64,000 nucleotides of DNA from assembly GCA_030539295.1 (NCBI GenBank), contig JAUNSJ010000009.1, positions 62,001-126,000 on the forward strand, in the 5' to 3' direction. The notes beneath the pieces are model-generated. The model did not search any database and was not told where the DNA came from. It worked only from the letters and a program-made list of their open reading frames with translations. The position numbers and the translations under genes are program-made. Source of the DNA: Planctomycetia bacterium. Its GTDB lineage: Bacteria > Planctomycetota > Planctomycetia > Pirellulales > Thermoguttaceae. This document shows, piece by piece, positions 6,559 through 58,499 of the stretch. Position 1 is the stretch's first letter, and each line of letters begins with the position of its first letter.

Positions 6559-6719
6559 TTGGGGGACCTCTGTAAAAGCGACAGGGGCACGCGGTCCCCT
6601 CGCGGGCGAACTATACTGAAATTGTCTCCTTGGTGAAAGGCAATTCGGGTAGGCAACTCCAGCAGCAGCCTGCCCGGTTGCCGTCTTTTTTCTTCCCGTT
6701 TAGCGAAAGAAGGTGGCTT

Positions 6720-6968: not shown

Positions 6969-6983
6969 TCTCCGCCGCGTCCG

Positions 6984-9555: not shown

Positions 9556-9556
9556 C

Positions 9557-10018: not shown

Positions 10019-10035
10019 GGTTTGCGTTCTCCTAT

Positions 10036-10392
10036 TTACGACTTCTGCTCGTCCTGTACGCTCTTTAAGTAGGCGGCCAGGCGGGCTTCCTGGGCCTTCA
10101 TGAGTGCCTCTTCCGCCTTGGCGCGGTCGCCGCTTTTTATGGCCATCGCGCTAAAGGCGGTGTAGTAGAACGGATTATCCGTTTCCAGTTCGCAAGCACG
10201 GGCAACGGCAGCCAGAGACTTGTCGTCATTACCGAGTTTATGATACAAGACCGACAGCGCCAGGTGCGCCAAGGCGTAGTTCGGATACGTCTTTGTCAGT
10301 TGTGTAAGTTCCTCGACGGCCTTGTCCAGTTCGCCGTTGTTCTTCAGTTGGATACATTCATCGTACCACTGTTCTTTTGCTCGTTGCGTCAT
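10036..10392 (-). CDS. TPR-repeat protein
   Basis: This 118-residue soluble protein contains about three tetratricopeptide repeats (DECIQLKNNGELDKAVEELT, ALAHLALSVLYHKLGNDDKS, PFYYTAFSAMAIKSGDRAKA), a helical scaffold for protein-protein contact. It lacks a signal peptide. It sits 17 bp before the response regulator and 27 bp after the helicase, so the three are probably co-transcribed. The partner is unknown; the adjacent receiver protein is the obvious candidate. Confidence 0.85.
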   Translation of the reverse strand: MTQRAKEQWYDECIQLKNNGELDKAVEELTQLTKTYPNYALAHLALSVLYHKLGNDDKSLAAVARACELETDNPFYYTAFSAMAIKSGDRAKAEEALMKAQEARLAAYLKSVQDEQKS

Positions 10393-10419
10393 GGTTGTAT
10401 CATCCGTTTCTATCTTGGT

Positions 10420-13005: not shown

Positions 13006-13161
13006 TTCCTTTAAATTGTGTGGAGCAGGAGAGTATGGACGATCGGCTCAAGCGAACGTACCCGCATCAAGTCACGCAGGCCGCGCGGCCGGAACAGAAT
13101 CCGCCCGCGCGAAAAATCGTGGCAGCAGGCAAAACGCAAATGACGAACAGGCAAGCTCTTC

Positions 13162-14070
13162 TTAGAAGGCGACCATATTACGAAATTCACGATAGCGTTC
13201 TTCTATATTATCCCGTGTCAGGTTTGCCAGACGTTCCAAAGAGAATCCTTCTACGCAAAAACTGGCAACCACCGTAGCATAGGCAAGCCCTTTTCGTATC
13301 GACTCTTCCGTCAAGTCATCACTTGCGGCGAGATACCCGCTCAAGGCTCCGGCAAATGTGTCGCCAGCCCCGGTCGGGTCAACCAGCCGATCCGTCGGAT
13401 AGGCCGGAATCATAAATATCCCGTCTTGAGTCAAATACAGAGCGCCATGCTCTCCCTTCTTAATTATTACCATCCTCGGACCCTGGTCCAGGATTCGTTT
13501 TCCGGCTCTGATGAGATTCGTTTCGCCCGTAAGCAACTTCACTTCCGAGTCGTTCAGAATCAGTCCATCAATTCGACGAAGTAACGCGTCCAGATTGGCC
13601 CTGTCGTTGTTGATATAAAAATCCATCGTGTCCGCTATAACCAGTTTGGGCTTAACCGACATTTTGTTCAACAAGGCCAAATGTATGCCCGGTCCTCCGT
13701 TGGCCAGAAATACGTATGGTATTTCACTGGCAGGCTTTGGCACGACTGGATCGTACTCAACGCCCATTACGTTTAATTCAATCTCAAGCGTTTCACGCTC
13801 GTTCATGTTCTCAAAATAACGCCCTGACCAATAGAGCGTCTTGGCCCCGGACCGTATCTCCAGCCCGTCCAGATTAATGCCATGTTTCTTCAGAAAGAGT
13901 GAATCCTCCCCATTCCAGTCATCTCCCACAACGGATACCAAGTGTGGCTCTGTAAAAAACGAGGCCGCATAGCTCGAATAGACACCCGAACCGCCTAAAA
14001 CCCGGTCCCGTCTGGCCTCGGGGGTGGCGATCGTATCGTACGCTGCGGATCCTGTTATCAAAAGCGACAT
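13162..14070 (-). CDS. PfkB-family sugar/nucleoside kinase
   Basis: This 302-residue ribokinase-fold enzyme phosphorylates a sugar or nucleoside. The C-terminal PfkB signature DPTGAGDTFAGALSGYLA contains the catalytic Asp and anion hole; the N-terminal GGSGVYSSYAA matches the substrate-binding loop. Within the family it looks closest to adenosine kinase/sugar kinase types of unknown substrate. The ATG at 14070 follows AGGAAG by about 7 nt. The frame stays open through the tandem repeat upstream, but that extension is non-coding repeat DNA and should not be counted. Confidence 0.85.
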   Translation of the reverse strand: MSLLITGSAAYDTIATPEARRDRVLGGSGVYSSYAASFFTEPHLVSVVGDDWNGEDSLFLKKHGINLDGLEIRSGAKTLYWSGRYFENMNERETLEIELNVMGVEYDPVVPKPASEIPYVFLANGGPGIHLALLNKMSVKPKLVIADTMDFYINNDRANLDALLRRIDGLILNDSEVKLLTGETNLIRAGKRILDQGPRMVIIKKGEHGALYLTQDGIFMIPAYPTDRLVDPTGAGDTFAGALSGYLAASDDLTEESIRKGLAYATVVASFCVEGFSLERLANLTRDNIEERYREFRNMVAF

Positions 14071-14133
14071 GTTCTCTCTTCCTGAAGGTCTTCTCATCTC
14101 TGGCAAAAAATTGCCGTTATTGGGTAAAACAAC

Positions 14134-14283
14134 GTTGCACAACCATTTCCCGCAAGGCGGCCCCTGGGTTGAAACCCGGGAAAAATGGGCGTGTCGGGGG
14201 TAAAACCGGTTGCACAACCATTTCCCGCAAGGCGGCCCCTGAGTTGAAACCCGGGAAAAATGGGGGTGTCGGGGGTAAAAAAT
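14134..14283. repeat. Two tandem copies of a 75-bp unit
   Basis: Unit 1 starts at 14134 and unit 2 at 14209; they differ at only a few bases. Each contains an inverted repeat (GGGTTGAAACCC in unit 1, GAGTTGAAACCC in unit 2). It lies between the PfkB kinase and glgC, in the divergent upstream region. It does not match any other part of the window. Confidence 0.85.
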
Positions 14284-14431
14284 ACAAAGCAACGCCTGGG
14301 GGTGATTTAAAGGCCACTTTGTATCCGATGGAGTTAAGCGTCGTCCAACTTCGTTGCGGTTTGCCCGCAGGAAGTCTTCTATCTCAATTCCCTTTTATAT
14401 AATAGTATAACCCAAAGGAGATGTTTCACAA

Positions 14432-15697
14432 GTGGGAGTACACCTTTCCGATCCAAACTGCCGTATGCTCGCCGTTATTCTGGCCGGCGGAAAAGGCGAA
14501 CGGCTCGAACCTCTTACCCGGCATCGCGCCAAACCCGCGGTCCCGTTCGGCGGTTCCTATCGCATTATTGATTTTGCACTATCAAATTGTATTAATAGCA
14601 ATATAAAACAAATCCTCCTGCTCACACAGTATAAATCGTACAGTCTTTCGCGGCACCTGTCGCTCGGCTGGACTCATTTCTTCTGCCGGGAACTGAATGA
14701 GTACCTGGACGTCATACCTCCGCAGCAGCGTATTGACGACAGTTGGTATCGCGGAACAGCGGACGCCGTTTATCAGAATATCTATTCGATAGAAAAGCAG
14801 CACCCGCAATACGTCCTCATGCTGGGCGGCGACCATATATATAAGATGAACTATCAATACATGCTTGATTTCCACTTGCGGAATCGTGCGGACGCGACAA
14901 TATCGGTGTTAGAGCTACCGGTCGCGGAAGCGGCAGGGCGGTTCGGAGTGCTGCAAACAGACGGAACCGGTCGCGTACTGGATTTTCAGGAGAAGCCGGC
15001 GCACCCGTACCCTGTGCCAGGGCGTCCGGAGCGATGTTACGCCTCGATGGGCATTTATATATTCAACGCGTCCTTTCTTTTCGAAGAGCTCTGTCGCGAC
15101 GCAACCCGACGTGGCAGTCGTCACGACTTCGGCGGTGACCTGATTCCGCGTTCGCTCAAGACGAGTCGCGTTTTTGCCTTTCCGTTTTCCGGCACGAACG
15201 AGCATGCTTACTGGCGTGACGTCGGGACAATCGACGCCTATTACGCGGCCAATCGCGACCTGATACAGATCAAGCCGGAACTGAATATTTATGACCGGAA
15301 CTGGCCGATCTACACGGCGCACCCGCACTGCCCGCCGCCGAAATTCGTCTTTTCGGAAGATGAACGACGCGGCGTGGCAGTGGAGAGTCTCGTCTGTAGC
15401 GGTTCGATTATTTCCGGCGGCAGTGTTTTTCGGTCCATTCTGGGTCACCGCGTTCGCGTCAATAGCTGGTCCCAGGTCGAGGATTCCATTCTCTTTGCCG
15501 ACGTTGCCATTGGCCGCAACGCCCGCATTCGCCGCGCCATTATAGATAAAGGGGTCGTCATCCCGGCCGGTACGCAAATCGGCTACGACCCCGACGAAGA
15601 CCGACGCCGCGGCTTTCACATTACGGAATCCGGCCTGGTCGTCGTGCCAGCCTTTACGCAACTGGAGTCTGGCGAGAACCGAGAGGACCCGGTCTGA
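14432..15697 (+). CDS. glgC: Glucose-1-phosphate adenylyltransferase
   Basis: This cytosolic enzyme makes ADP-glucose from glucose-1-phosphate and ATP, the committed step of glycogen synthesis. The pyrophosphorylase loop is AVILAGGKGERLEPLT, followed by KPAVPFGGSYRIIDF and DHIYKMNY. The C-terminal third forms a left-handed beta-helix (repeating I-x-x-G hexapeptides such as GSIISGGSVF). Its 421 residues are normal for the family. The start is GTG at 14432, about 11 nt after AAGGAG; ATG at 14465 is a less likely alternative because it would cut into the nucleotide-binding strand. No other glycogen gene is adjacent. Confidence 0.95.
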   Translation: MGVHLSDPNCRMLAVILAGGKGERLEPLTRHRAKPAVPFGGSYRIIDFALSNCINSNIKQILLLTQYKSYSLSRHLSLGWTHFFCRELNEYLDVIPPQQRIDDSWYRGTADAVYQNIYSIEKQHPQYVLMLGGDHIYKMNYQYMLDFHLRNRADATISVLELPVAEAAGRFGVLQTDGTGRVLDFQEKPAHPYPVPGRPERCYASMGIYIFNASFLFEELCRDATRRGSRHDFGGDLIPRSLKTSRVFAFPFSGTNEHAYWRDVGTIDAYYAANRDLIQIKPELNIYDRNWPIYTAHPHCPPPKFVFSEDERRGVAVESLVCSGSIISGGSVFRSILGHRVRVNSWSQVEDSILFADVAIGRNARIRRAIIDKGVVIPAGTQIGYDPDEDRRRGFHITESGLVVVPAFTQLESGENREDPV

Positions 15698-37665: not shown

Positions 37666-37750
37666 CTTAGGTTAATGACAGATCATGCCGCCTTTCCAAA
37701 AAAAGGCCATGTTTCTACTTTTGATGAAAGTGCAGGAAGGGCCTCTATCA

Positions 37751-39811
37751 ATGAGCAACCATCGCCATAAAATGTTATTGCGTAATGTTATTGTTACACA
37801 AATAGCGTCAATAGTTTTGTTTTACATGTGTATATCTATTGTTTCTTTCATGGGATGTAAGAACACCATAGAAGTTCAAAAAGAATTTCACAAACAAGGA
37901 ACACAGGCTGGTGAAAAGCAAACAATAATTATTAATGAAATCCCTTACACATTTTGCTGGTGTCCGCCAGGACAATACACAATGGGACAATCTAGTTCTC
38001 CTATCAAGTATGAAGATTTTTGCGATGTTGTTCTAACGCAGGGATTTTGGATGCTTGAGTCGGAAATTACGCAAGGGATGTGGATTAGCATAATGTTAAA
38101 TAATCCGAGTAACAATAAAGGTGGAATATTAAACAGTAGACTACAATATCCAGTAGAAAGTGTAAACTGGTATGATTGCCGTGATTTTATTACTAAACTG
38201 AATAAAATGAATATTCTACCTAAAGGATATGTCTTCTCTTTACCAACAGAAGCACAATGGGAATACGCAGCTTGCGCCGGAGAAAAACCTTTCATTCTTC
38301 AAAAGCAAGAACTTGATAACATCGCGTGGCAAGGAGGTGGAACATGGGGGATCTTACATAGTACAGGGATAAACAAAATTTACTCGACACAGAAAATCAA
38401 AAACAAAAAACAGAATGCCTGGAATTTGTATGACATGCTGGGAAATGTCGGTGAAATATGTTTGGATAAGTACTATGAAGATGATTATATTTATGGGGCA
38501 ATACAACAAATAGACTTGATGAACGAATTTACAGGATCCCCACAAAAGAGTCTTATCGTTACTCGGGGTGGTTCCTTTTCTTTTCCTGGTCCCAAGGTTG
38601 AATACCGAATTCCATATTACGCTGATTGGAAAGATAAAGAAATCGGTTTTAGAATTGTAATAAAACAAAAGCCACCATTGGTTTTTAGTCATGTGGTTAC
38701 TACTTCACGTTTATGGTATCTTAATTTAACTTTTGATTCTGAGATCTGTACCACTAGACCTATTCGTGGCGAGTACGTGCGATCAGACGAACATTTTGTC
38801 GAAATAAGAACATCAACAGGTGAAATACTCAAATTCGAAAAGCTTTCATTGTTATATCGTGAGGACAAATTATATGTTCTTGAACAGGAACGTAAAAACA
38901 AGAAACGTGCAAAATCAGAATTTCCAGACGAAACGGAATCTTCCTCTGCGTCTGAGGAATCACAGACGTACCCCATTCGCGAGGACGAGTCAAAAGAAGA
39001 GCCCGTTGAGGAAACTCCAGCTCCGTCGAGCAAGAGTTCTGAATCTGCTGACATGAAGAATGAAGATTTGGAACGATTGGGAGTTGATTTATCCGTAAGA
39101 GCGTCTTTAAATAACAAAAACATTATAGTAGAGGGAGAAGAAAACCCGGGATTGCCTGGTTTTAAGTCTGCTCTCTATCGAGATGGTATTACCGGAAAAT
39201 ATATATTAGCGTTTGCGGGTACCGATGATTATGAGGATGCAATTGAAGATATATGGCAAGGACTTGGGTACGGGATTACACAATATCAAGAGGCGATAAG
39301 AGTTTCTGACTCTTTAATGCGTAATGAACATATTGCGAATAACATAATAATTACCGGCCATTCATTAGGAGGGGGATTGGCAAGCGCAGCGGCGTGTTTT
39401 ACAGGATGCCGTACTGATTCTTTTAACGCAGCTGGGCTTCACCCTAATACAATTAACAACGGTAGTTCTGAAGCCATTATTCGTTTTAATAATGCAACCA
39501 CATCGAATGCTCAAAGATCTTTACTTATCAGGGCTTATTATACAGATTATTGCATCTTAAGTAATATACAGGATTATACCATTCTATGCGATGCAATAGG
39601 TTACCGAATAAAAGTAGATACTGATTATGACACAAGAATGGCATTTCATCTATTTGAAACATTTGTTTCGACTGCAGTTCCTGGAGGGGGGAGTTCACTT
39701 ATTCTATCATTAGGGCAAACTGCATATACAATGATAGAATGTCATGGATTAGACGCTCTGTTTTATGGATTATTAGTCGATGAAAGTACAGGAAGGAACC
39801 TCTATAAATGA
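37751..39811 (+). CDS. Lipoprotein: FGE-sulfatase-like domain, SHD1, linker, class-3 lipase-like C-terminus
   Basis: The protein has 686 residues. The start at 37751 is chosen because AGGAAGG precedes it and the tandem neighbour starts identically. A hydrophobic leader ends in lipobox SFMGC. Residues about 50-305 form an FGE-sulfatase/SUMF1-like fold (LPTEAQWEYAACAGEKPF, LYDMLGNVGE, VTRGGSFSF) but lack the catalytic Cys of true FGE (GFRIV instead of GFRCA). Then come an SHD1-like segment (about 335-375) and an acidic Ser/Glu linker. The C-terminal 240 residues are alpha/beta-hydrolase-like with nucleophile loop ITGHSLGGGLAS. The C-terminal half is AT-rich. A surface lipase or effector role is inferred. 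Confidence 0.75.
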   Translation: MSNHRHKMLLRNVIVTQIASIVLFYMCISIVSFMGCKNTIEVQKEFHKQGTQAGEKQTIIINEIPYTFCWCPPGQYTMGQSSSPIKYEDFCDVVLTQGFWMLESEITQGMWISIMLNNPSNNKGGILNSRLQYPVESVNWYDCRDFITKLNKMNILPKGYVFSLPTEAQWEYAACAGEKPFILQKQELDNIAWQGGGTWGILHSTGINKIYSTQKIKNKKQNAWNLYDMLGNVGEICLDKYYEDDYIYGAIQQIDLMNEFTGSPQKSLIVTRGGSFSFPGPKVEYRIPYYADWKDKEIGFRIVIKQKPPLVFSHVVTTSRLWYLNLTFDSEICTTRPIRGEYVRSDEHFVEIRTSTGEILKFEKLSLLYREDKLYVLEQERKNKKRAKSEFPDETESSSASEESQTYPIREDESKEEPVEETPAPSSKSSESADMKNEDLERLGVDLSVRASLNNKNIIVEGEENPGLPGFKSALYRDGITGKYILAFAGTDDYEDAIEDIWQGLGYGITQYQEAIRVSDSLMRNEHIANNIIITGHSLGGGLASAAACFTGCRTDSFNAAGLHPNTINNGSSEAIIRFNNATTSNAQRSLLIRAYYTDYCILSNIQDYTILCDAIGYRIKVDTDYDTRMAFHLFETFVSTAVPGGGSSLILSLGQTAYTMIECHGLDALFYGLLVDESTGRNLYK
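38888..39062 (+). repeat. Linker repeat, copy 1 (175 bp)
   Basis: This is nearly identical to 40936-41110. It encodes the basic-then-acidic linker (RKNKKRAKSEFPDETE onward) that joins the shared N-terminal part to the variable C-terminal domain. Confidence 0.9.
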
Positions 39812-42744
39812 GCAACCATCACCATAAAATGTTTTTTTACAATTTTAGTGCTACACAAATAGTGTATATGTTTTTGTTTTACATGTGTATATCTATTGTT
39901 TCTTTCATGGGATGTAAGAACACCATAGAAGTTCAAAAAGAATTTCACAAACAAGGAACACAGGCTGGTGAAAAGCAAACAATAATTATTAATGAAATCC
40001 CTTACACATTTTGCTGGTGTCCGCCAGGACAGTATACAATGGGGGAGAATCCGCAGAATTATCACCCAGTTGGTCAATTGGGATGGGGGGATGTTATCCT
40101 TACACAAGGTTTTTGGATGTTGGAAAGTGAAATCACACAAGCCATGTGGATTAATATCATGGAAAATAACCCCAGTGAATTTAAAAGTGGTCTATTAAGA
40201 AACAGACTTCAACATCCAGTAGAAAGAGTGTCTTGGGATGATTGTCAGACATTTATAACGAAATTGAATGAAATGTCTCTCCTTCCTTCTGGTTATTTAT
40301 TTTCATTACCAACAGATGCACAATGGGAGTATGCTGCCTGTGCAGGAAAAAAACCATTTACTTTAGAGGAGGAAAAAAACCTTGATTCAATAGCTTGGCG
40401 AGGAGGTAAATCGTGGTGGATGCAGGGTGGTGGACCAAGCAATCTCTATACTACCCAAAGAGTTAAAACAAAGAATCCTAATGATTGGGGATTATATGAC
40501 ATGCTGGGAAATGTTTTTGAGACATGTCTTGACAAATTTTTCGATGACAAATATATATATAGTTCGATTCCTCAAAAAGATCTATTTAACGAGCATGATC
40601 CCACAAAACTCGAAGATGTTGTTATACGTGGTGGAAGTGTTTTTTCTGGTGGCGTATGTGTCCGCAGTCGTGGAGGAGTTTCGCCACGCGTAGGAAATAG
40701 AGTTTGTGGCTTTAGAATTGTAATCAAACAACCACAACCTTCTGTTTTTAGCCGTACTATACCAACGGATTACGAATGGGTTATTGATCCACGCGGCCGT
40801 AAGGAATTTCGACTTCGTGGCAAGTATGTTCATTCTGATGAACGTTTCGTCGAAGTACAAGTATCAACAGGAGATATAGTAAAACTCGAAAAGAATTCAT
40901 TAGAGTTCTACAACAAAAATTACATTCGTGATGAGGAACGTAAAAACAAGAAACGTGCAAAATCAGAATTTCCAGACGAAACGGAATTTTCCTCTGCGTC
41001 TGAGGAATCACAGACATCTCCCATTCGCGAGGACGAGTCAAAAGATGAGCTCATTGAGGAAACTCCAGCTCCGTCGGGCAAGAGTTCTGAATCTGCTGAC
41101 ATGAAGAATGTTCGAATCGGCGATCGAAGAGACGAGTTCCTTTTTGTTGCTGACGCTGCGACCATGCACTGGTCGGTCAATTCCGAAACTTCCAGGTCAC
41201 ATAATTCGAACTCTTTTCCGACTACTTCGGTTTTCAACGATGCTCGATTGCCTGCTGCCAGGACCGGGAACAAAGAAGAAACCCTTTTCTTCTCCGAGGA
41301 ATCTACGAATCAACTTTTTTATACCTACCAGGCACAAGATGTGTCAAGACTGTGCGATTTTGTGGAACTTCATGACCTGGACGCAAAAATAAATCGTTTA
41401 TACAAGGTTCCTCTTCCCGCTAAAATTGAAGGTATTGTTCCGCAAAAAGAATTGTTGTTCGGACGATGTCGGCATGTAGAGCACGTGGGTTTTCTTAATG
41501 TCATTGCATTTTTGCGAATGTCAAATCACGAACAGCTGGAACCTGCTTTTATTTTTGATCCTTATCGTCAGCCCTTTCCACGAAAAGATGCCATTAGCTC
41601 TCAATTTTGGAGCGTAATTAATTCAAAAACCGTGGAACAAGTGATCGCCATTAATTCCTCTCTTCTTCTGACGCAAGGCGAGGGGATGTTGACTTTATGG
41701 GATATTGACAAGCTTAGGTCGAAATACAGCATCGTGTGCAAATCTCAGACTACCGACGTTTCGGACGACGGAAAATGGCTCGCTGTTCCTGTTACGGAAT
41801 ACGCGAAATCAAGAGGAATAGAAATCCGTGAAGTTCTTAGCGGTAAAGTTCGAGGCGTACTGGGACCCCGCGAAAGTGGTATTATAAAATGTTGTTTTTC
41901 ACCGTCCGGCAGGGAACTCGCCGTACTGTATCGCGACGAACTTGTCGTCTACTCGCTGAAGTATGGCACGATCAGCTGTGAAATTCCATGCCCAGACGCA
42001 ACACTATCCGAGAACCATTTAATTTGGGTCGGGGATGATAGAATAATGAATAATGGCATTCTTTACGATCTCAACGCGCAGATGGCGGTCTGTCACTATC
42101 TGACACTCGATTCCCGAACCAATGTTATGCAATATCACCAGGGAAGGCTGTGGATCATCTTTCGTTCGCCAGAGGGTTTTAAATTGATTAATGAGAAACT
42201 GCCACATGAAGAAATCGAGCAGGCGTTTCAGAAACTCAACCTGAAACAAACCTTTGACTATTATCCCGATATCCCCTTAAAACTGATTGTCGTTGTAGGT
42301 ATGGACACAACTGAAAAGACGCATCCCACTCTGCTTGAAGAATGGCAGGAGCATCTTAAAACAAGAGGTTTTAAAGTTGCGAAGGAATCATCTGTTCATC
42401 TCAGTGTTGCTATAGGAAGGGCACCAAGGAAAGAGATTTTCAAACAATTCGGCCGTGTTACCCCGAAAGCAGTCGAATCTGACTATTACCTTCAGTACAC
42501 CCAACTCTTCAAAAATGCCAAACAGGTCTGGTCAAATCAATGTGTTCACCACGAACAGAACTGGGAGACGCGACTTATGGCACGCTACGGACCAGACGCT
42601 CCTGAACTTAAGAATGAAGTATACATCCCCTATATCGACGACCTGCGTATTCCACGATATATCCAAAAAGATCAAGAGGTCCCCACAGCCGCCCCGATAC
42701 AAGCGATGTTTGACGCAGAAGGAGTGAAAATTGTGAGCCCGTAA
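39808..42744 (+). CDS. Lipoprotein: FGE-sulfatase-like domain, SHD1, linker, WD40-like propeller C-terminus
   Basis: This 978-residue paralog of the preceding gene overlaps it by four bases (ATGA). The lipobox leader and first 60 or so residues are identical to it. The FGE-like domain (about 50-310; LPTDAQWEYAACAGKKPF, VIRGGSVFSGG) is only partly similar. The SHD1 segment (WVIDPRGRKEFRLRGKYV) and the acidic linker are again close to identical. From about residue 434 the protein changes to an unrelated region with WD40-like blades (VTEYAKSRGIEIREV, CCFSPSGRELAVLY), ending in a domain typical of planctomycete propeller proteins. Base composition shifts back toward the host average at this point. 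No enzymatic role can be assigned. Confidence 0.75.
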   Translation: MSNHHHKMFFYNFSATQIVYMFLFYMCISIVSFMGCKNTIEVQKEFHKQGTQAGEKQTIIINEIPYTFCWCPPGQYTMGENPQNYHPVGQLGWGDVILTQGFWMLESEITQAMWINIMENNPSEFKSGLLRNRLQHPVERVSWDDCQTFITKLNEMSLLPSGYLFSLPTDAQWEYAACAGKKPFTLEEEKNLDSIAWRGGKSWWMQGGGPSNLYTTQRVKTKNPNDWGLYDMLGNVFETCLDKFFDDKYIYSSIPQKDLFNEHDPTKLEDVVIRGGSVFSGGVCVRSRGGVSPRVGNRVCGFRIVIKQPQPSVFSRTIPTDYEWVIDPRGRKEFRLRGKYVHSDERFVEVQVSTGDIVKLEKNSLEFYNKNYIRDEERKNKKRAKSEFPDETEFSSASEESQTSPIREDESKDELIEETPAPSGKSSESADMKNVRIGDRRDEFLFVADAATMHWSVNSETSRSHNSNSFPTTSVFNDARLPAARTGNKEETLFFSEESTNQLFYTYQAQDVSRLCDFVELHDLDAKINRLYKVPLPAKIEGIVPQKELLFGRCRHVEHVGFLNVIAFLRMSNHEQLEPAFIFDPYRQPFPRKDAISSQFWSVINSKTVEQVIAINSSLLLTQGEGMLTLWDIDKLRSKYSIVCKSQTTDVSDDGKWLAVPVTEYAKSRGIEIREVLSGKVRGVLGPRESGIIKCCFSPSGRELAVLYRDELVVYSLKYGTISCEIPCPDATLSENHLIWVGDDRIMNNGILYDLNAQMAVCHYLTLDSRTNVMQYHQGRLWIIFRSPEGFKLINEKLPHEEIEQAFQKLNLKQTFDYYPDIPLKLIVVVGMDTTEKTHPTLLEEWQEHLKTRGFKVAKESSVHLSVAIGRAPRKEIFKQFGRVTPKAVESDYYLQYTQLFKNAKQVWSNQCVHHEQNWETRLMARYGPDAPELKNEVYIPYIDDLRIPRYIQKDQEVPTAAPIQAMFDAEGVKIVSP
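40936..41110 (+). repeat. Linker repeat, copy 2 (175 bp)
   Basis: This is nearly identical to 38888-39062. Similarity stops abruptly after ADMKN, where the C-terminal domains become unrelated. Confidence 0.9.
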
Positions 42745-45783: not shown

Positions 45784-47943
45784 TTACGGATAAACTGTTT
45801 TCAACCACAGCAAAAAGGCATCCTGTTGTTCTTTTTGGAAGCGGCAGATATCGTCAGGCGTCTGGATCTGGACCTGTTTTGCCGCTGTTTCGGTCTTTTG
45901 TACTGACTGAACGCAGTGGCGAACGGCGTCGACATTGGCAAAGCGGTCGCGAATTGGAGCATAGATTAGGCAGGGACGCGGCATAATGACCCTGATAATA
46001 TCGTCGTAGTCGAGCGGGGTTTCCTTTTCGCGGCCAATGAACAGCCCCAGTTTGGGGACTACGGCATGACAGTGACTCAACAGGGCCAGGCCGCCAGTGC
46101 GATTGGCTTGTGTTTGGTCACGAAACTGAGTCACTCCGGAAAAGGAAGCGACCGAGGTAATGCGGTCATCCAACGCTGCGGCGAACACGGCAACCATGCC
46201 GCCGTAACAGAATCCAGCCGCACAGATTTTCGTTGGGTCGGCTTGGGGAATGCTTGCGGCGGCCTGACCTTTACCCTCGAGCAGAAAGTCCAGGGCGGCC
46301 TGAACATCAGCGACTGCCTGACCCAATTTTGACCAGTGTGGATTTTGTTCGTAAAAAGTTCGATTCTTAAGAATCTCTTCCCCGAACCCGACCTGGTCCC
46401 ACGTCACAACCAGATATCCTTCCCCGGCAAGGCGCCAAGGGACGGTTGTTCCTTGTATTCCGTAGCCTTCATTGCTGCCTGTGGCGTAGCTCCACGGTCC
46501 GAGCCAGAGTACAGTCGCAAGATATTCTGTTCGGTCAGGGTCAAAATAAATATTCCCTTGACGACCGGAAGAAAAAGCAAAAGGCACACGTTTGCAATTG
46601 TCAACCCGACCGATATTCCGGTCCTCTTGCGGGATAAATAAATCGTCGGGATGGGTGAGGTGCCAGCAGGGAGCTTCCTGATATGTTGGATGTCCGAGTA
46701 GCCATTGCAATTTTTTAATTGTATCGTCTGTAGCAGGGACTTCAAGATCGTCTGAAGTTTGCAACGTGCGCCAATGATCCCAGTCAAAAGCGTGCAAAAG
46801 GTTCTCTTGATAGAATGATTTGTCGATGGTCTTGCGAAGGAACGCACAATCGAAGAAATCGAGATTGAATTGAACACGTTCCGGCAGAATGGGATTGTGG
46901 CCACCACGACGCCAAGCCAAAGTTATTTTGGATTCCGCGCCATGTAAGGCATAAGCTTTTTTTGCATTTAAATAACAGCGTTCAACAGCGAAGGTTTGAT
47001 CACCGTCGTCGTTAAAGGCTGTGTCAAGCATGAGATGTCGTGGTGCTATTGTTGCCAGCAGGGCATTGGCTTCAATGGGGAGTTCATTCTCCTTTCCATA
47101 ATATTCCTTTAAAGAAGGCAGAACCCAGCATTCGGGGACATCTTCCGGGGACACGGACTCCGACCATGTTTGCCGGCCGGAAAACCGATAAGAAGCGGCC
47201 GTTGGCACTCCACTGCTCCTGGCAACAACGCAAGAGAAGCGAGAATCGAACGCGGCGGCGTAAATGGCCATTTTCCCATAGCGCGAATGACCCATAATAC
47301 CGATCTGATTCGGATAAATCTTTACCACGCAATCAGGAGACAACAGGTAATCCAGACAACGACTTGCCAGCCACGCCTGAATCGCAAGCGAGGAGGACCA
47401 GGTTGCCTCCGGATACTCATTTTTGAATATTTTCCAAACATTTTCATAGTTTGGAAATGCCTCTTCTTTCTGATTGGCATCAACACCCGGGAAATAACAG
47501 ACGACATAGCCTCGTCGCACAGCTTCGTCGGCCCAGGGAATCTGATAGTATCGGGGCGCGAGGAGTAGAAGTGGGAACGGACCTGGTCCGGCGGGAATTC
47601 GCAAGGTGAGTTCAAACGAGGCCTGGTGCGGCGTATCGAACGTGACCTTGATTCGCTTGACCGTTTCTGTGTTACTCTGTTGACGATCGAGTTCCGAAGC
47701 TGCGATCACGGCGGGAACGTGCTCCGGGAAACGACCGAGATACGTATCGCAAAACAGAGTATGAATTTCTGAAACGCGTGACGGCCAATCCTCAACAGAA
47801 CGGACTTTGTGTCCATTGCAAAAAGTTAACGCGTCGGGTTCTTCAAATGATGAAACAGAAGGTGCGTCCGCTCCTGCTTCTGCCACGACGACAAAGAGAA
47901 GTACGAAGACACAAACTTTAATGGCATTCACATGCATATACAT
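45784..47943 (-). CDS. Exported double alpha/beta hydrolase: CE15-like plus dienelactone-hydrolase-like
   Basis: This 719-residue protein has a signal peptide and two hydrolase folds. The first (about 40-390) has the nucleophile loop IGIMGHSRYGKMA with Ser220 and a late His in WRRGGHNP, the pattern of CE15 glucuronoyl esterases, which cut lignin- or glucuronate-linked xylan esters. The second (about 430-719) has AAGFCYGGMVA, where the nucleophile position is Cys579, as in dienelactone hydrolases. The substrate is unknown; a polysaccharide-ester role fits the secretion and operon position (after DUF1559 and a lipoprotein). Confidence 0.82.
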   Translation of the reverse strand: MYMHVNAIKVCVFVLLFVVVAEAGADAPSVSSFEEPDALTFCNGHKVRSVEDWPSRVSEIHTLFCDTYLGRFPEHVPAVIAASELDRQQSNTETVKRIKVTFDTPHQASFELTLRIPAGPGPFPLLLLAPRYYQIPWADEAVRRGYVVCYFPGVDANQKEEAFPNYENVWKIFKNEYPEATWSSSLAIQAWLASRCLDYLLSPDCVVKIYPNQIGIMGHSRYGKMAIYAAAFDSRFSCVVARSSGVPTAASYRFSGRQTWSESVSPEDVPECWVLPSLKEYYGKENELPIEANALLATIAPRHLMLDTAFNDDGDQTFAVERCYLNAKKAYALHGAESKITLAWRRGGHNPILPERVQFNLDFFDCAFLRKTIDKSFYQENLLHAFDWDHWRTLQTSDDLEVPATDDTIKKLQWLLGHPTYQEAPCWHLTHPDDLFIPQEDRNIGRVDNCKRVPFAFSSGRQGNIYFDPDRTEYLATVLWLGPWSYATGSNEGYGIQGTTVPWRLAGEGYLVVTWDQVGFGEEILKNRTFYEQNPHWSKLGQAVADVQAALDFLLEGKGQAAASIPQADPTKICAAGFCYGGMVAVFAAALDDRITSVASFSGVTQFRDQTQANRTGGLALLSHCHAVVPKLGLFIGREKETPLDYDDIIRVIMPRPCLIYAPIRDRFANVDAVRHCVQSVQKTETAAKQVQIQTPDDICRFQKEQQDAFLLWLKTVYP

Positions 47944-51776: not shown

Positions 51777-53060
51777 CTACCCGGCGTCTTTGCTGTCGAG
51801 ATGGGTCCTTTTTTCTTTGTGGGGGGGCGCAACGTCGGATTCCGGGACGAGGTGCGGCTGCTTGCGGAACTTGCCCGGACGGATACCCGTCTTGCGAACG
51901 AAGGCTTCACTCAAGCGCTGCGGATGATTAAAGCCGCTCTTGATAGCGATTTCCTCAATGCTCAAGTTCGTAGTTCGCAGGAGAATTTTCGCAATTTCAA
52001 TCTTCTCATTAAGAATCTGCTCCAGAACCGTCTTATTCAGTTCGACGCGAAAGAGTCGCTGAAGTTTCGTCGTGGAGAGGTCGACGCACGCGGCAACGTC
52101 CGGAACGGAAATGTCGTACCGAGCGTTTTCCCGTATGAATTCCAATGCCTGTTGTATGACCGGATGCGCCACTTTGTACACCTGCGTCGACGTTCGAACG
52201 GCTATGCCGAGAGGCGGAATATAACGCTCATAATGCCCAAGCTCTTCTCCGTTCATTGCGCGGGCCAGGAGTTCCGCTGCGCGATAGCCGATTTCCTTTG
52301 AGTTCAAAATAACGCCACTTATGGTCGGCGAGACCATTTCACAGGCAATTTCCTCATTATCGCCGGAGATGATGGCCACGACTTCCGGGACGCTTAAATG
52401 CACCGCCTCGGCCTCCTCCAGCAGCTGTATCGCGCGAAAGGAATTACAGGCAAGAATGCCAACCGGCTTCGGCAGCGCGCGAATCCAGGCCTGAATCCGT
52501 GGCCGTTCACGCTCCCATGTACTATTGCGATATTCAAAGCGGTTGTCCACAATGCGGTCGTCGAATCGCAATCCTTTGAAAACACTACACGTGCCGCCAC
52601 TTTCGCGTATTCGGTCGCAAAATCCGCGGCAGCGCTCGTCTGACCAGAGATAACCCTGCTGTCCGATGTACCCGAATTCACTGTAGTCGCGCTCAAGAAG
52701 ATGCTCCGCCGCCATACGCCCGACGGCAACCTGGTCATTATATAATAAGGGCAGGCCCAGCGACGGCACGCGTTCATTCAAATCAATGACCGGAATGCCT
52801 GTCTTGCGGGAAAAATCGTACATCTCCTCCGACGAAATACGCGAGATAATTCCGTCGCCTCGCCAATGCCGCAGCCAAGGCGGAAATTGCCATCGCGAAA
52901 ATTCATAGTCCAAATGGATACGCCAGGGACCATTCTCTTTCGCGTACTGCGTTATTCCCTGGAGCACTTCCCGCCCGTACGCATTGGCCAGCGAGACAAA
53001 GACGGCGACCTTTTTTGCCTGTCGGCCCTTATTTTGACGTGCTTGTGTCGATATGTTCAT
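51777..53060 (-). CDS. XylR-type transcriptional activator (sugar sensor plus AraC domain)
   Basis: This 427-residue regulator has an N-terminal LacI-like sugar-binding fold (about 20-285: VAVFVSLANAYGREVLQGI, VAAIISGDNEEIACEMVSP) and a C-terminal AraC/XylS domain with two helix-turn-helix units (about 305-405: DVAACVDLSTTKLQRLFR, IEEIAIKSGFNHPQRLSEAF). The layout is that of XylR. It is encoded divergently from the sugar operon at 53344. A 38-bp element at 53181 recurs at 58538 upstream of a second operon, so it probably activates both. The inducer is unknown. Confidence 0.88.
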   Translation of the reverse strand: MNISTQARQNKGRQAKKVAVFVSLANAYGREVLQGITQYAKENGPWRIHLDYEFSRWQFPPWLRHWRGDGIISRISSEEMYDFSRKTGIPVIDLNERVPSLGLPLLYNDQVAVGRMAAEHLLERDYSEFGYIGQQGYLWSDERCRGFCDRIRESGGTCSVFKGLRFDDRIVDNRFEYRNSTWERERPRIQAWIRALPKPVGILACNSFRAIQLLEEAEAVHLSVPEVVAIISGDNEEIACEMVSPTISGVILNSKEIGYRAAELLARAMNGEELGHYERYIPPLGIAVRTSTQVYKVAHPVIQQALEFIRENARYDISVPDVAACVDLSTTKLQRLFRVELNKTVLEQILNEKIEIAKILLRTTNLSIEEIAIKSGFNHPQRLSEAFVRKTGIRPGKFRKQPHLVPESDVAPPHKEKRTHLDSKDAG

Positions 53061-53343: not shown

Positions 53344-54111
53344 ATGATGCAAGTTTGCTTAAAAGACAAGGTGTGTGTGGTTACCGGGTCGGCCAAGAGT
53401 ATCGGTTACGGGGTTGCCCAGGCGTATTCTGAATCTGGAGCCAAGGTCGTTATGATCGATATTGACCCGGCCGTGATGGACTCTGCTGCCCGGCTTGGTG
53501 CCCGGGGTTATGTCCTCGATATAACGAAGCGAGCGGACGTTTTGAAAGTTTTTTCGGAAATTGCGACGGAAATCGGACCCGTTTATGCTTTGGCGAACGT
53601 TGCCGGCGCGGTGGACCAGGCCCCCTTTACGGAAATTACGGAAGAGGCCATGGACCGTATGATGCGGGTTAATGTAAGCGGGACCCTCTTCTGCTGCCAA
53701 GGGGCCGTTGCCAGTATGCGGACTCTTGGTCAGGGGCGGATCATCAATTTCTCCTCGAAATCGGGCAAGACGGGCTCTGCGCTCATGGCTCACTATTCCG
53801 CGGCCAAAGGAGCTGTTATTGCCTTGACACACGCATTGGCCTTTGAACTTGCAAAAGATAAAATCAACGTGAATTGCCTCTGTCCAGGCATAACCGACGC
53901 GACAGGCGTCTGGAGCGAGGTCAGTAAAGGGTATGTGAAAAACATGCACAAAAGCCGCGAAGAAATTATCGATATCTTTACGGCAAAAATCCCGCTTAAG
54001 CGTTTGACTTCCATTGAGGACGTTGTTGCCTGGGTCCTCTTCCTCACGGAACAGGGCGACTACTGCACTGGCCAAGCCTTTAATATTTCCGGTGGGCGCG
54101 AAGTTCACTGA
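53344..54111 (+). CDS. Short-chain dehydrogenase/reductase
   Basis: This 255-residue NAD(P)-dependent oxidoreductase has nucleotide-binding GSAKSIGYGVA, structural LANVAG, catalytic Ser in NFSSKSG and Tyr-Lys in HYSAAKG, and NCLCPGI. It probably oxidises a sugar alcohol or sugar acid; the substrate cannot be read. The first gene of the sugar operon. Two adjacent ATGs (53344, 53347) follow AAAGGAG; the second has better spacing. Confidence 0.9.
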   Translation: MMQVCLKDKVCVVTGSAKSIGYGVAQAYSESGAKVVMIDIDPAVMDSAARLGARGYVLDITKRADVLKVFSEIATEIGPVYALANVAGAVDQAPFTEITEEAMDRMMRVNVSGTLFCCQGAVASMRTLGQGRIINFSSKSGKTGSALMAHYSAAKGAVIALTHALAFELAKDKINVNCLCPGITDATGVWSEVSKGYVKNMHKSREEIIDIFTAKIPLKRLTSIEDVVAWVLFLTEQGDYCTGQAFNISGGREVH

Positions 54112-54153
54112 TACACGACATTGTAAGATACAAGAAAAGTGAAAAGGTAAAAT

Positions 54154-54822
54154 ATGAAAATAGCACGTTATCTCGACCACGCTGTGCTCAAGCCGGAATT
54201 AACCCGGCAAGAAGCAGAAGAGGCTATAAAACTTGGAATTTCGTACGAGGTGCGGACCGTGTGCGTGCGCCCGTGCGATCTTGAGCTTGCAGTGGCCCTG
54301 TGTCAAGGGACGCAAACGGAAGTTTCCGTCGTTCTGAACTTTCCCCACGGCTGCTCCAGTACCGCGATCAAAGCAGCCGAGGCACGCGACTACTCGCAAA
54401 AGGGAGCCCGTGAACTGGATATGGTCGCCAACTACGGCTGGATTCGGTCCGGACTCTACGACCTGGTGGAGCAGGATATTCGCGCCGTCGTCGAAGCGGC
54501 CCAGCCCTTTAACGTAACGGTCAAAGTTATTCTGGAAACGAGCCAATTGACCCTGGAACAAATAGCACGAGCGACGCAAGCCGCCATTGCCGCCGGCGCC
54601 GCGTTCGTCAAGACCTCAACCGGATTTAACGGACCGGGAGCTACAGAAGAGGCCGTCGACGTCATGCTCAAGACGTCGCAAGGACGAATCAAAGTCAAGC
54701 CGTCCGGAGGAATTCGCGACGCCGCTCGCGCCGCCATGTTCGTCAAAATGGGTGCTGACCGGCTCGGCGTCAACTACACCAGTACGCCGGAAATTTGCAA
54801 GTCGGCCGCCGGTAACCCATAA
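54154..54822 (+). CDS. deoC: Deoxyribose-phosphate aldolase family protein
   Basis: This 222-residue class I aldolase has the Schiff-base Lys in FVKTSTGF, a second Lys in VKPSGGIRD and the VVLNFPHG segment. DeoC reversibly cleaves 2-deoxyribose-5-phosphate to glyceraldehyde-3-phosphate and acetaldehyde. Here it lies among sugar dehydrogenases and an FGGY kinase rather than nucleoside genes, so it may act on another phosphorylated sugar. AAAAGGT precedes the start. Confidence 0.85.
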   Translation: MKIARYLDHAVLKPELTRQEAEEAIKLGISYEVRTVCVRPCDLELAVALCQGTQTEVSVVLNFPHGCSSTAIKAAEARDYSQKGARELDMVANYGWIRSGLYDLVEQDIRAVVEAAQPFNVTVKVILETSQLTLEQIARATQAAIAAGAAFVKTSTGFNGPGATEEAVDVMLKTSQGRIKVKPSGGIRDAARAAMFVKMGADRLGVNYTSTPEICKSAAGNP

Positions 54823-54895
54823 AGGTAACACATAAAATCGATCGAAGAGCCTTTACAAACGATACTAAAAGACAGACCTGTATTTTGCGGAGAGA

Positions 54896-55996
54896 ATGAA
54901 TATGTCAACACTAGTGGAAACCACGACGCGAGTCAGACGGCAACCCCGGGACTTCTCCTGTGGCGATTCCGTTGTTTTTTACGCCCCTCATGACGTTCGT
55001 ATTGAGCCGATGGCTAAGCGTCCCGAGCCGGGAACCGGAGAAGTTCTGGTGCGTGTCGAGGCCTGCGCCATCTGCGGAACCGACGTGAAATCTTACCGCT
55101 TTGGCAACGCGAGAATTCAACCGCCACAAATTATGGGCCATGAATTTTGTGGCACAATTGAAGAATGCGGGCAGGACGTCACGGAATACAGTCCGGGCCA
55201 GCGAGTCGTTATGGCCACAAGTATGGGCTGCGGCTCCTGCTTCTATTGCAAGAGCGGGCACAGTAATATCTGTCCTGAAATCGAAGCGATGGGCTTTCAT
55301 TATCCAGGCGGGATGGCCCCGTGGCTCATTATTCCGGCCAAAGGAGTGCGGCAGCGGCATTTAGTGGACGTCGGCGACTTGAATCCGGTCGTTGCCGCCC
55401 TTGCCGAACCGATGTCTTGTGTTATAAATAATGTTACCAGGCCGCCGCGGGACGAGGTTCATACCGCGCTCGTACTCGGACTCGGTCCGCTCGGATTCCT
55501 GCATGCCATTTGCTTACGCGAACGCGGGGTTGAGTCCATTGTGTGTGTTGAGTTTCCCGGACGTCGGTTTGAGCTGGCTCAGGCGATGGGCTTTCAGGTC
55601 ATAACGCCAGAGGAACTGGAACGCTCCTGGCAGCAGCGGTCGGGCAATCGCGGTTTCGATTTCGTTATTGTCACCGCGCCAAGCAACGCGATTCAGGGAA
55701 CGGCTCCGAAGTACGCGAGGAAACGCGGCTACGTCTCCTGGTTCGCGTCACTGCCCGCCGGCGACGAAATGCTGACCGTCAACAGTCGCACGGTGCACTA
55801 TGGAGAGCTGACCGTCTACGGCACCAGCGATTCCACACCGGAGCATGTACGTCAAGCGGTTGACATTTTGCGACAGGGCCAGAACGATTTCCGTAAAATC
55901 GTGACGCACGTCCTGCCCATGAGTCAGTTTGAATTTGCGCTCGACGAAATAAAAAATGGCGCCGCAGTTAAGATTGTTCTGGTTCCGGAAAACTGA
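54896..55996 (+). CDS. Zinc-dependent medium-chain dehydrogenase
   Basis: This protein of 364-366 residues belongs to the sorbitol/threonine/alcohol dehydrogenase family. Catalytic zinc ligands are in ACAICGTD and GHEFCGT; structural zinc cysteines are in GCGSCFYCKSGHSNIC; the NAD fold shows VLGLGPLGFLHA. It probably oxidises a polyol or ketose in the operon's pathway. The ATG at 54902 has better spacing to GGAG than the one at 54896. Confidence 0.9.
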   Translation: MNMSTLVETTTRVRRQPRDFSCGDSVVFYAPHDVRIEPMAKRPEPGTGEVLVRVEACAICGTDVKSYRFGNARIQPPQIMGHEFCGTIEECGQDVTEYSPGQRVVMATSMGCGSCFYCKSGHSNICPEIEAMGFHYPGGMAPWLIIPAKGVRQRHLVDVGDLNPVVAALAEPMSCVINNVTRPPRDEVHTALVLGLGPLGFLHAICLRERGVESIVCVEFPGRRFELAQAMGFQVITPEELERSWQQRSGNRGFDFVIVTAPSNAIQGTAPKYARKRGYVSWFASLPAGDEMLTVNSRTVHYGELTVYGTSDSTPEHVRQAVDILRQGQNDFRKIVTHVLPMSQFEFALDEIKNGAAVKIVLVPEN

Positions 55997-56090
55997 TTCG
56001 GGCATGGTTTTCCGGTATACAGACGAAGGATTATTATCGCTCCATAAATTTAAATTTTCAACGCGGTACGAAATAGAGAGAGGTTAACCG

Positions 56091-57620
56091 ATGAAATATC
56101 TGCTTGGAATCGATTGCGGTTCAACGATCGTTAAAGCGGCTTTATTCGACGAGAACGGGCATGAAATCTCGGTCGTCGGAGAGAAGATACCTCATCTTTA
56201 CCCTCATTCGGGCTGGACGGAAAACGACCCGGAAAAACTCTGGCAGAGTGTCCTGACACTCCTGTCCCGACTCCTGCGTGAGACAGGAATCGACCCGGGA
56301 CAGATTGCCGCTCTTGCCTGTACCGGATATGGAAACGGACTGTATCTGACCGACGCCAAGGGAACGCCCGTGCGGAATGGAATCATCTCGTCGGACCTGC
56401 GTGCCCGGGATTATGTCCAGCAATGGCTCAATGACGGGACGCTCGACGCCCTACGCCCGAAAACCTTGCAAGCGACCTGGCCCGCCCAGCCCAACGCTCT
56501 GCTCCGTTTCCTCCTCGACCATGAGCCAGAAAGTGTACAGCGTGCCCGTTGGTTCTTTACCTGTAAGGATTATATTCGTTTTCGGCTGACCGGGCACCCC
56601 TGCTGGGAACTCTCCGACGCTACCGGATGCAATATGGTAAACGTAACCACCGGGGAATACGACGATGCGATTTTTCACGCCTGGGGCCTGGAACAGGTGC
56701 GTGATCTTTTTCCGCCGTTGTGCCATTCGCTGGACCTGTGCGGCACAATTACCGACGAGGTTGCCAAGGCGACCGGGCTTCTCGCGGGTACGCCCGTTGC
56801 CGCCGGTATGTTCGATATCGACGCCTGTTCCCTCGCCGCTGGTATGACCGACCCGTCTTGCCTGTGCATGGTCAGTGGCACTTGGGGCAATAATCTTTCC
56901 CTTACACAAGATCCACGCCCCGACAGCGATATTTTCATGACCAGTCGCTACGCGCTGGACGGCTATTATCTTTTGCTTGAAGGCAGTCCGACCTCGGCCA
57001 GTAATTTCGACTGGTTCGCCACACGCTTCCTGGCACGCCGTGCCCCGCAGGCGTATCAGGGTGAAAGTGACGAAACCGCATGGCGTGACACGCAATTTGC
57101 GGAATGTCTGCGTGAAATTGCCGCCGTTTCCCCACGTGAGGATGCCCCCATTTTTTTGCCGTACCTCTTTGGCGGTCCGGTCGACCTCGATGCCCGTGGC
57201 GTCCTCTTCGGACTCGATGGTCGTCATGAGCAGGGCGATATCCTCCGTGCCGTCCTCGAAGGGATCGTCTTCGGGCACCACTGGCACGTCGATCGCTTGT
57301 GCCGCGTGCGGAATCGCCCGGTCGTCATTCGCCTGACCGGCGGGGCAACGCGAAGTCCGCTCTGGACGCAAATGTTCGCCGATGTTTTCCAGACGCCGGT
57401 AGAAATTCCGACCGGGACCGAACTGGGCGTTCTCGGCGCGGCTATTGGCGCCGCTGCTGCGGTGGGCCTGTATCCATCATTAACCGATGCGGTTCAGTCC
57501 ATGGTTCGCGTCGACCGTGTCTGTCAGCCGAATTCGGAACTGGCCGAACTTTACGCCCGAAAATACCGCCGGTTCCGGAAGTTGCTCGACGTCCTCGCCG
57601 GGCACTGGACGCTGGATTAG
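56091..57620 (+). CDS. FGGY-family carbohydrate kinase (LyxK-like)
   Basis: This 509-residue sugar kinase begins LGIDCGSTIVKAALFDENG (phosphate-1 loop), has TGYGNGLYLTDAKGTPVRNG, then VSGTWGNN (second loop) and GGATRSPLWTQMF (adenosine site). Within FGGY kinases it most resembles L-xylulokinase types, but its substrate is not certain. It would phosphorylate the ketose made by the dehydrogenases for later cleavage. GAGAGG precedes the start. Confidence 0.9.
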   Translation: MKYLLGIDCGSTIVKAALFDENGHEISVVGEKIPHLYPHSGWTENDPEKLWQSVLTLLSRLLRETGIDPGQIAALACTGYGNGLYLTDAKGTPVRNGIISSDLRARDYVQQWLNDGTLDALRPKTLQATWPAQPNALLRFLLDHEPESVQRARWFFTCKDYIRFRLTGHPCWELSDATGCNMVNVTTGEYDDAIFHAWGLEQVRDLFPPLCHSLDLCGTITDEVAKATGLLAGTPVAAGMFDIDACSLAAGMTDPSCLCMVSGTWGNNLSLTQDPRPDSDIFMTSRYALDGYYLLLEGSPTSASNFDWFATRFLARRAPQAYQGESDETAWRDTQFAECLREIAAVSPREDAPIFLPYLFGGPVDLDARGVLFGLDGRHEQGDILRAVLEGIVFGHHWHVDRLCRVRNRPVVIRLTGGATRSPLWTQMFADVFQTPVEIPTGTELGVLGAAIGAAAAVGLYPSLTDAVQSMVRVDRVCQPNSELAELYARKYRRFRKLLDVLAGHWTLD

Positions 57621-57737
57621 ACCACCCTGTCAGGCATATTGTTAAAAATACAAGAAAACAGTAAGCCTGTTGTGTGACCGTTCGAATAAATAACTTGCAA
57701 AAATAGCAAATGCAATAAAAAGGTAAAAGGAATTTTT

Positions 57738-58499
57738 ATGGACCTGTTCCTCAAGGACAAAACTGTTCTGGTCACCGGCGCCGCCAAGGGACTCGGTGCC
57801 GCTATTGCCACATTGCTGGCCCAGGAAGGTGCCCGGGTCGTTATCAATTATTCGTCCAGTCGTGAGGCCGCCGCGTCGCTCTCACACCAGTTGACCGACC
57901 AGTACGGAGTCCGCACACTTGCCCTGCAAGCCGACGTTTCCAACGAAGCCGAGGTCATTTCCATGTTCGATGCCGTGGAGGCGGAATTCGGCCCGGTCGA
58001 CGCTCTGGTCAATAACGCCGCGTACTGTGCCAATCCCTGTTGCGTTGATTTGGACCTGGCCGAATTTCAGAAGACGCTGGCCGTAAACTTACAGGGAACC
58101 TTTCTCGCCAGCCGCGAATTCTGCCGACGCGCTTTGCGTGATAAGCGGACCGGGAACATCGTCAATATTTCCAGTCAGGCAGCGCTCCGCGGATCGCAAA
58201 GTGGGAAAACAGCCTACGACATGACAAAAGCGGGCATCGTCGGGTTTACCCGCTCTCTTTCGCTCGAAATGGCCCCCCACTGCATTCTCGTCAATTGCGT
58301 CCTGCCCGGCCTTATGTACACCGACATCCTCGCCCGTCAGATCGCCGCCGACCCCGACCGCTACAACAAACGTTCCCCCCTGGGCCGAATTGGTCGCTGC
58401 GAAGAGATTGCCCAAGTTGCCGTCTTTCTCTGCTCCAGCCGAGCAAGCTATATGAGCGGCGCCTCGGTCGACGTCTCCGGCGGCCTGGCCTTGCACTGA
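57738..58499 (+). CDS. Short-chain dehydrogenase/reductase
   Basis: This 253-residue NAD(P)-dependent enzyme has TGAAKGLGAAIA for nucleotide binding, NNAAY, catalytic Ser in NISSQAA and Tyr/Lys in YDMTK, and NCVLPGL. It is only moderately similar to the SDR at 53344, so the operon has two distinct oxidation steps or substrates. It is the last gene before the second promoter at 58573. Confidence 0.9.
   Translation: MDLFLKDKTVLVTGAAKGLGAAIATLLAQEGARVVINYSSSREAAASLSHQLTDQYGVRTLALQADVSNEAEVISMFDAVEAEFGPVDALVNNAAYCANPCCVDLDLAEFQKTLAVNLQGTFLASREFCRRALRDKRTGNIVNISSQAALRGSQSGKTAYDMTKAGIVGFTRSLSLEMAPHCILVNCVLPGLMYTDILARQIAADPDRYNKRSPLGRIGRCEEIAQVAVFLCSSRASYMSGASVDVSGGLALH

Follow-up and report, generated by a model that had tools for sequence, protein, structure and literature searches.

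A Planctomycetia operon that combines three dehydrogenases and a LyxK-clade kinase with a DERA-type aldolase probably encodes a sugar catabolic pathway

The closest described relatives of the operon analyzed here are the deoCABD and yia-lyxK-sgb genes of E. coli, the Lsr system for autoinducer-2, a fungal L-arabinose/L-xylulose route and the sugar phosphate-utilizing (SPU) bacterial microcompartments (BMCs). The operon lies in a 64,000-nucleotide stretch of Planctomycetia bacterium DNA (contig JAUNSJ010000009.1, positions 62,001 to 126,000; hereafter the window). At window positions 53344-58499, an earlier note made from the sequence alone had recognized two short-chain dehydrogenases (SDR1 and SDR2), a medium-chain dehydrogenase (MDR), an FGGY kinase and a DeoC-like aldolase, and the open reading frames (ORFs) and their Pfam domains were confirmed. 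Compared with deoCABD, the window DeoC shows the same aldolase family, catalytic residues and a passing score for the deoxyribose-phosphate aldolase (DERA) model TIGR00126. However, the deoA, deoB and deoD neighbors of E. coli are missing beside the window DeoC, a serine of the phosphate loop is lost, and dehydrogenases and an FGGY kinase are added. The yia-lyxK-sgb genes for L-xylulose/3-keto-L-gulonate have the kinase clade in common (33% identity), but their decarboxylase and 3-/4-epimerase (the sgbH/sgbU/sgbE functions) are absent from the window operon, which carries a DERA-type aldolase instead. Lsr also pairs an FGGY kinase (LsrK) with an enzyme, LsrF, that we take to be a member of the DeoC/LacD superfamily. 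In contrast, the window kinase is 24% identical to LsrK and falls outside its branch, the window DeoC is of the DERA type, and the operon has no lsr transporter. The fungal route consists of MDR, SDR and FGGY enzymes without an aldolase step; these enzyme classes are shared, whereas the aldolase is found only in the window operon. SPU microcompartments share the DERA-type aldolase, but the window operon has no shell, RpiB or aldehyde dehydrogenase (AldDH) genes. Thus, as far as tested, no known pathway fits: we looked for one to which every enzyme is clearly orthologous and found none, in agreement with the earlier note. Open-access literature searches listed no paper on this gene set.

We consider it probable that the operon serves the inducible catabolism of a sugar or polyol, proceeding by oxidation or epimerization, phosphorylation and retro-aldol cleavage. 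As the earlier note pointed out, enzymes for oxidation, phosphorylation and aldol cleavage are all encoded. The two SDRs and the MDR would shift or re-set the carbonyl by oxidation and possibly epimerization, the kinase would phosphorylate the ketose thus formed at its terminal hydroxyl, and the class I aldolase would cleave the phosphorylated sugar. The products would most likely be glyceraldehyde-3-phosphate and a short carbonyl, either a C2 aldehyde or, with a hexulose substrate, a C3 ketone. While the class of chemistry is clear, the substrate, the products and the sequence of steps are inferred, and a deoxy sugar, a pentose-5-phosphate and a hexulose-6-phosphate are kept as candidates.

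The gene set is conserved as a unit. Contigs from one genome per species were scanned with an alignment of four kinases, and the best 80 of 126 confirmed loci were kept. ORFs around these kinases were called mechanically, and frames on the opposite strand hid some true genes; the genes were therefore counted again by tblastn. This gave 24 of the 80 loci with three or more of the five genes, spread over Planctomycetota, Verrucomicrobiota, Kiritimatiellota and Bacteroidota (phyla from record titles), typically in the order SDR1-DeoC-MDR-SDR2-(transporter)-FGGY (e.g., L091, L095 and L119; L and G numbers are our labels for loci and genomes). SDR2 is conserved near the kinase in relatives, and the cluster-linked MDR homologs are ~40-45% identical. 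A whole-genome search with SDR1 (E<=1e-45) in 25 genomes, the 24 and the window's own, returned exactly one match in 22 and none in 3. This single strong match sits inside the kinase locus in 18 of the 24 other genomes; it lies on the same contig as the kinase locus in G613, on another contig beside shell and AldDH genes in G601, and elsewhere in the genome in G615. DERA-type proteins are common (matches in 156 of 196 genomes of the order, only two besides the window's own with more than 60% identity), and the kinase is rare, with matches at E<=1e-60 in 8 of the 392 phylum genomes, the window's own among them. Because the gene set recurs in four phyla and the near-unique SDR1 matches sit in the kinase locus, this is more than chance, and the five genes are a genuine conserved catabolic unit rather than a chance row.

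The kinase scored 236.6 bits with the XylB model TIGR01312, missing the cut-off of 380.25 bits, and passed no other listed kinase model (NCBIfam). Its nearest solved relatives are a xylulose kinase, a gluconate kinase and others. In a tree of 60 rows including E. coli references, the window kinase belongs to a clade of 36 rows (support 99/93) from the same four phyla, with kinases from acetogens, Tissierella, spirochaete-titled records and Klebsiella as the sister group. A wider clade of 49 rows (100/100) includes E. coli LyxK, with XylB, LsrK, AraB, FucK, RhaB and GlpK outside. LyxK is just one deep branch of this clade. Thus, the earlier description of the kinase as L-xylulokinase-like holds at the level of the clade, and 33% identity does not license naming a substrate. 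LyxK-clade kinases stand beside an annotated class I fructose-bisphosphate aldolase in Shinella and Phyllobacterium, beside an aldolase annotated as heptonate-phosphate aldolase in Klebsiella, and beside a class II-like aldolase (family by eye) in acetogens. Note that acetogen-type records (L127, L130, L131, L135-L138, L140 and L142) combine a related kinase and an SDR with GlpA/GlpB-like, DUF1667-like and antiterminator-like genes and, though not in all, a class II-like aldolase; these loci are another uncharacterized kinase-aldolase set, with families assigned by eye.

DeoC passed the DERA equivalog TIGR00126 with 208.9 bits (cut-off 117.3 bits), and its nearest solved relatives are DERAs. 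The window enzyme retains K153, K182 and D89, the equivalents of the E. coli Schiff-base lysine K167, the second lysine K201 and the aspartate D102. More broadly, equivalents of E. coli D16, C47, D102, K167, K201 and R207 are kept in all 35 proteins compared (17 window-type and 18 cluster-linked DeoCs). The DERA catalytic site fits a 2-deoxy or an alpha-hydroxy substrate. The phosphate loop, RLGVNYTS, has asparagine opposite a serine of the best relative in the PDB. A serine equivalent to E. coli S238 was found in none of the 17 window-type, none of the 18 cluster-linked and none of three microcompartment-linked DeoCs, and in all 20 other Kiritimatiellota DeoCs sampled. Note that the automatic alignment of the 35 proteins misplaces the E. 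coli phosphate loop, and statements on the loop are based on other comparisons. According to a passage in PMC8403123, S238 binds the phosphate of deoxyribose-5-phosphate. In a DeoC tree of 64 rows, with 24 near-copies left out, 18 cluster-linked and 9 window-type DeoCs and 11 DERAs of another planctomycete family form a clade of 38 rows (99/99). This clade is apart from E. coli DeoC, from the DERA of L040, which lies beside nucleoside phosphorylases (neighbors by eye), and from the SPU DeoC clade, with which the three microcompartment-linked DeoCs group. Two DERA lineages, both without the loop serine, thus serve the same front-end genes.

The best PDB relatives of SDR1 are sorbitol/L-iditol 2-dehydrogenases, those of the MDR include threonine and sorbitol dehydrogenases, and those of SDR2 include FabG and glucose 1-dehydrogenase. 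Recurrent partners over the 24 loci are an SMP-30-like exported protein (20 loci), a Nuc_H_symport transporter of the major facilitator superfamily (18) and an exported cupin (13), export of the SMP-30-like protein and the cupin being judged by eye from the N-termini. An HZS-alpha-domain protein (7), a RhaT-like transporter (4) and an aldose 1-epimerase-like protein (4) are less frequent. The sequence match of the cupin to D-lyxose isomerase is sub-threshold; its predicted model (pLDDT 77.6) has solved D-lyxose isomerases as best match (E 2e-14, TM-score 0.86 on the target). The SMP-30-like protein, the Nuc_H_symport transporter and the isomerase-like cupin fit sugar uptake and aldose-ketose isomerization, and hint at a ketose intermediate. 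None of the six partners is encoded within the window operon; the window's own genome has single distant homologs of the transporter and the cupin on other contigs, without pathway neighbors. The interpretation in the earlier note is partly upheld, for the encoded steps but not for its deoxy- or branched sugar: the DERA site would accommodate a 2-deoxy (or alpha-hydroxy) sugar, loss of the serine and the isomerase-like partners leave ketoses open, and nothing is specific to a branched sugar. Individual loci contain further carbohydrate-related genes, namely GH32 and arabinofuranosidase-like genes in L129, DUF2961 in L128, sulfatases in L097 and L122, and an AGE-family epimerase in L110/L113. 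Deriving a substrate from the neighboring glycosidases and sulfatases was dropped, with too few loci and no systematic scan, and no substrate is claimed on this basis.

Several observations weigh against the proposed pathway. The 24 loci were selected for having at least three of the genes; they argue that the unit is orthologous and say nothing about how common it is. The nearest kin are 17 Planctomycetaceae metagenome-assembled genomes (L065-L081; their isolate names resemble a series that we presume to be from termite gut), with kinases of 50-55% identity and, in 16 of the 17, a window-type DeoC of 62-70% identity. In these 16 genomes, no kinase was found within the stretches fetched around that DeoC. 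SDR2 or SDR1 adjoins DeoC in L212, L213 and L035, and a further metagenome-assembled genome (L116) has a kinase of 51% identity and only a distant DERA. Thus, the genes of the unit stand close together in the window as well as in distant phyla, and are in part spread out in the nearest kin sampled. Moreover, with the loop serine lost, the aldolase could favor a substrate that is unphosphorylated or phosphorylated differently, and kinase and aldolase would then act in another order. Since a related DERA group without linkage to the cluster, from another planctomycete family, also has no loop serine, this loss is suggestive only and not diagnostic.

Three genomes combine the SDR1/MDR/FGGY set with RpiB, AldDH and shell genes; SDR2 is present in two of the three. 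The gene order is cupin-SDR1-shell-AldDH-RpiB-DeoC-epimerase-MDR with FGGY and transporter beyond in Phycisphaerales (L102/L228), and SDR1-shell-AldDH-RpiB-DeoC-epimerase-MDR-SDR2-transporter-FGGY-cupin in Kiritimatiellia (L117/L227). In the third genome, L084 ends in RpiB and another stretch, L295, starts with RpiB-AldDH-shell-SDR1-cupin; the two contigs presumably adjoin. The microcompartment-linked DeoCs have an N-terminal extension that by eye resembles an encapsulation peptide. The L089 contig stops short of any BMC gene, and no BMC match was obtained in the same genome. Passages in PMC4207490 and PMC8217296 describe SPU loci from DeoC and RpiB and tentatively assign them to DNA degradation. 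We sampled 20 regions around SPU-type or related DeoCs in Kiritimatiellota, from 20 of the 75 genomes with a match among 288 searched. Shell and AldDH genes were present in 12 of the 20, and none of these 12 had SDR1, MDR, SDR2 or FGGY in the stretch fetched (the L277 stretch ends inside AldDH). The link between module and SPU genes is therefore a minority subtype. Note that in the Kiritimatiellota SPU loci L275-L288, RpiB and DeoC are adjacent and often in one long open frame (>420 amino acids), perhaps fused. In the window's own genome, BMC domains were found only on contig C7 (L149), in a PVM-like locus beside a class II aldolase. The C7 locus (6881-14500; BMC domains by search) also carries, by eye, PduL-like, acetate-kinase-like and AldDH genes. 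It was rejected as a partner of the pathway, having a class II aldolase and no DeoC (enzyme names by eye).

The three linked genomes suggest that SPU-type organelles may be supplied by this pathway, in place of deoxyribose derived from DNA. We tentatively propose, as a possibility well short of even odds, that the SDR1-MDR-SDR2-FGGY front end supplies a DERA-type aldolase that is free in the cytosol in some cases, as in the window, and enclosed in an SPU-type microcompartment in others. At least this SPU subtype would then burn an exogenous, oxidized and phosphorylated sugar in place of deoxyribose taken from DNA. The aldolase, in turn, would represent a naturally occurring DERA whose phosphate pocket has been re-tuned.

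An alternative that we regard as unlikely is a hexitol/hexulose route, in which SDR1 or the MDR forms a hexulose, the kinase its 6-phosphate, and DeoC releases dihydroxyacetone and glyceraldehyde-3-phosphate in a cleavage like that of fructose-6-phosphate aldolase. The relationship of SDR1 to sorbitol/L-iditol 2-dehydrogenases would agree with this route, as would the D-lyxose isomerase fold of the cupin (solved relatives were crystallized with D-fructose and D-mannose), the AGE-family epimerase, the GH32 and DUF2961 genes, and a DhaK-DhaL pair in the window's own genome. However, fructose-6-phosphate aldolase is an enzyme of the transaldolase family and not a DERA, the glycosidases come from single loci without a systematic scan, and the AldDH of the microcompartment-linked members misfits a ketone product.

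Rather improbable is a pentose-5-phosphate, formed after isomerization and cleaved by DeoC to glycolaldehyde and glyceraldehyde-3-phosphate. An RpiB-type isomerase adjoins DeoC in the microcompartment-linked members, and E. coli LyxK is annotated as L-xylulose kinase. But RpiB is missing from the window operon and from the other 21 of the 24 loci, and DERAs are described in PMC8403123 as acetaldehyde-dependent.

Salvage of deoxynucleosides or 2-deoxyribose, in which DeoC would be a standard DERA for 2-deoxyribose-5-phosphate, the kinase would make that phosphate and the dehydrogenases would be accessory, appears a shade more doubtful still. We know of no place for a LyxK-clade kinase and three dehydrogenases in deoxyribose salvage, and DeoC lacks the loop serine responsible for binding the phosphate of deoxyribose-5-phosphate. 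The thymidine-phosphorylase family PF00591 was not found in the window's own genome (4.13 Mb, 88 contigs, 87.9% complete), whereas 14 of 14 control genomes were positive. In favor of salvage, DeoC passes the DERA model, the transporter in 18 of the 24 relative loci is of a nucleoside-symporter family, and the module is joined to SPU genes, for which a passage in PMC8217296 proposes a DNA-derived substrate. That unrelated genes are adjacent by chance, as the stretches without kinase around DeoC in the nearest relatives might suggest, is highly improbable and already contradicted by the four-phylum recurrence and the near-unique SDR1 matches in the kinase locus.

The catabolic reading preferred here is supported by a second FGGY-MDR-DeoC trio in the same genome (contig C73, L042, 6661-10073, minus strand), which shows the same logic and might handle a second sugar in parallel. 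An SMP-30-like gene (10091-11248) precedes this trio, with an HZS-alpha-like gene (by eye) beyond. The C73 kinase is XylB-like (379.6 bits, cut-off 380.25), and the C73 DeoC is a distant DERA with 141.8 bits, over the cut-off. Separately, DhaK- and DhaL-like genes on contig C27 (L041, ~6460-9170, minus strand) adjoin an aldolase (PF01791) that by eye is LsrF/FbaB-like.

All five operon genes are on one strand, with intergenic gaps of 42, 73, 94 and 117 bp (Table 1). A divergent gene, not part of the gene set in the earlier note, encodes a XylR-type regulator that, from its position, would control the operon. The genes downstream of SDR2 resemble what we take, by eye from an N-terminal motif, to be DUF1559-type proteins, and the operon therefore seems to end at SDR2. 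A consensus promoter scan was not informative (6 found, 2.7 +/- 1.8 expected by chance). Elsewhere in the window, two neighboring large proteins with FGE-sulfatase domains (PF03781) are encoded at 37685-42744, and a two-domain esterase with a glucuronyl-esterase match (PF22244) at 45784-47943, a few kb from the regulator.

Table 1. Genes of the operon and its divergent regulator in window coordinates (HTH, helix-turn-helix)
Feature	Position	Strand	Basis
XylR-type regulator (LacI-like sensor domain and AraC HTH)	51777..53060	-	Peripla_BP_3, HTH_18 and PBP1_XylR above cut-off
SDR1, sorbitol/L-iditol 2-dehydrogenase-like short-chain dehydrogenase	53344..54111	+	adh_short (Pfam) above curated cut-off
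DeoC/DERA-type class I aldolase, altered phosphate loop RLGVNYTS	54154..54822	+	DeoC/LacD (Pfam) above curated cut-off, TIGR00126
MDR, zinc-dependent, polyol/threonine-dehydrogenase-like	54896..55996	+	ADH_N and ADH_zinc_N (Pfam) above curated cut-off
FGGY sugar kinase, LyxK clade	56091..57620	+	FGGY_N and FGGY_C (Pfam) above curated cut-off; tree with E. coli references
SDR2, FabG/glucose 1-dehydrogenase-like short-chain dehydrogenase	57738..58499	+	adh_short_C2 (Pfam) above curated cut-off

In conclusion, the probable pathway extends across four phyla and, with every enzyme class known, lends itself to assays. Through its link to SPU genes in three genomes, it provides a testable alternative to the DNA-scavenging role proposed for a widespread type of microcompartment.

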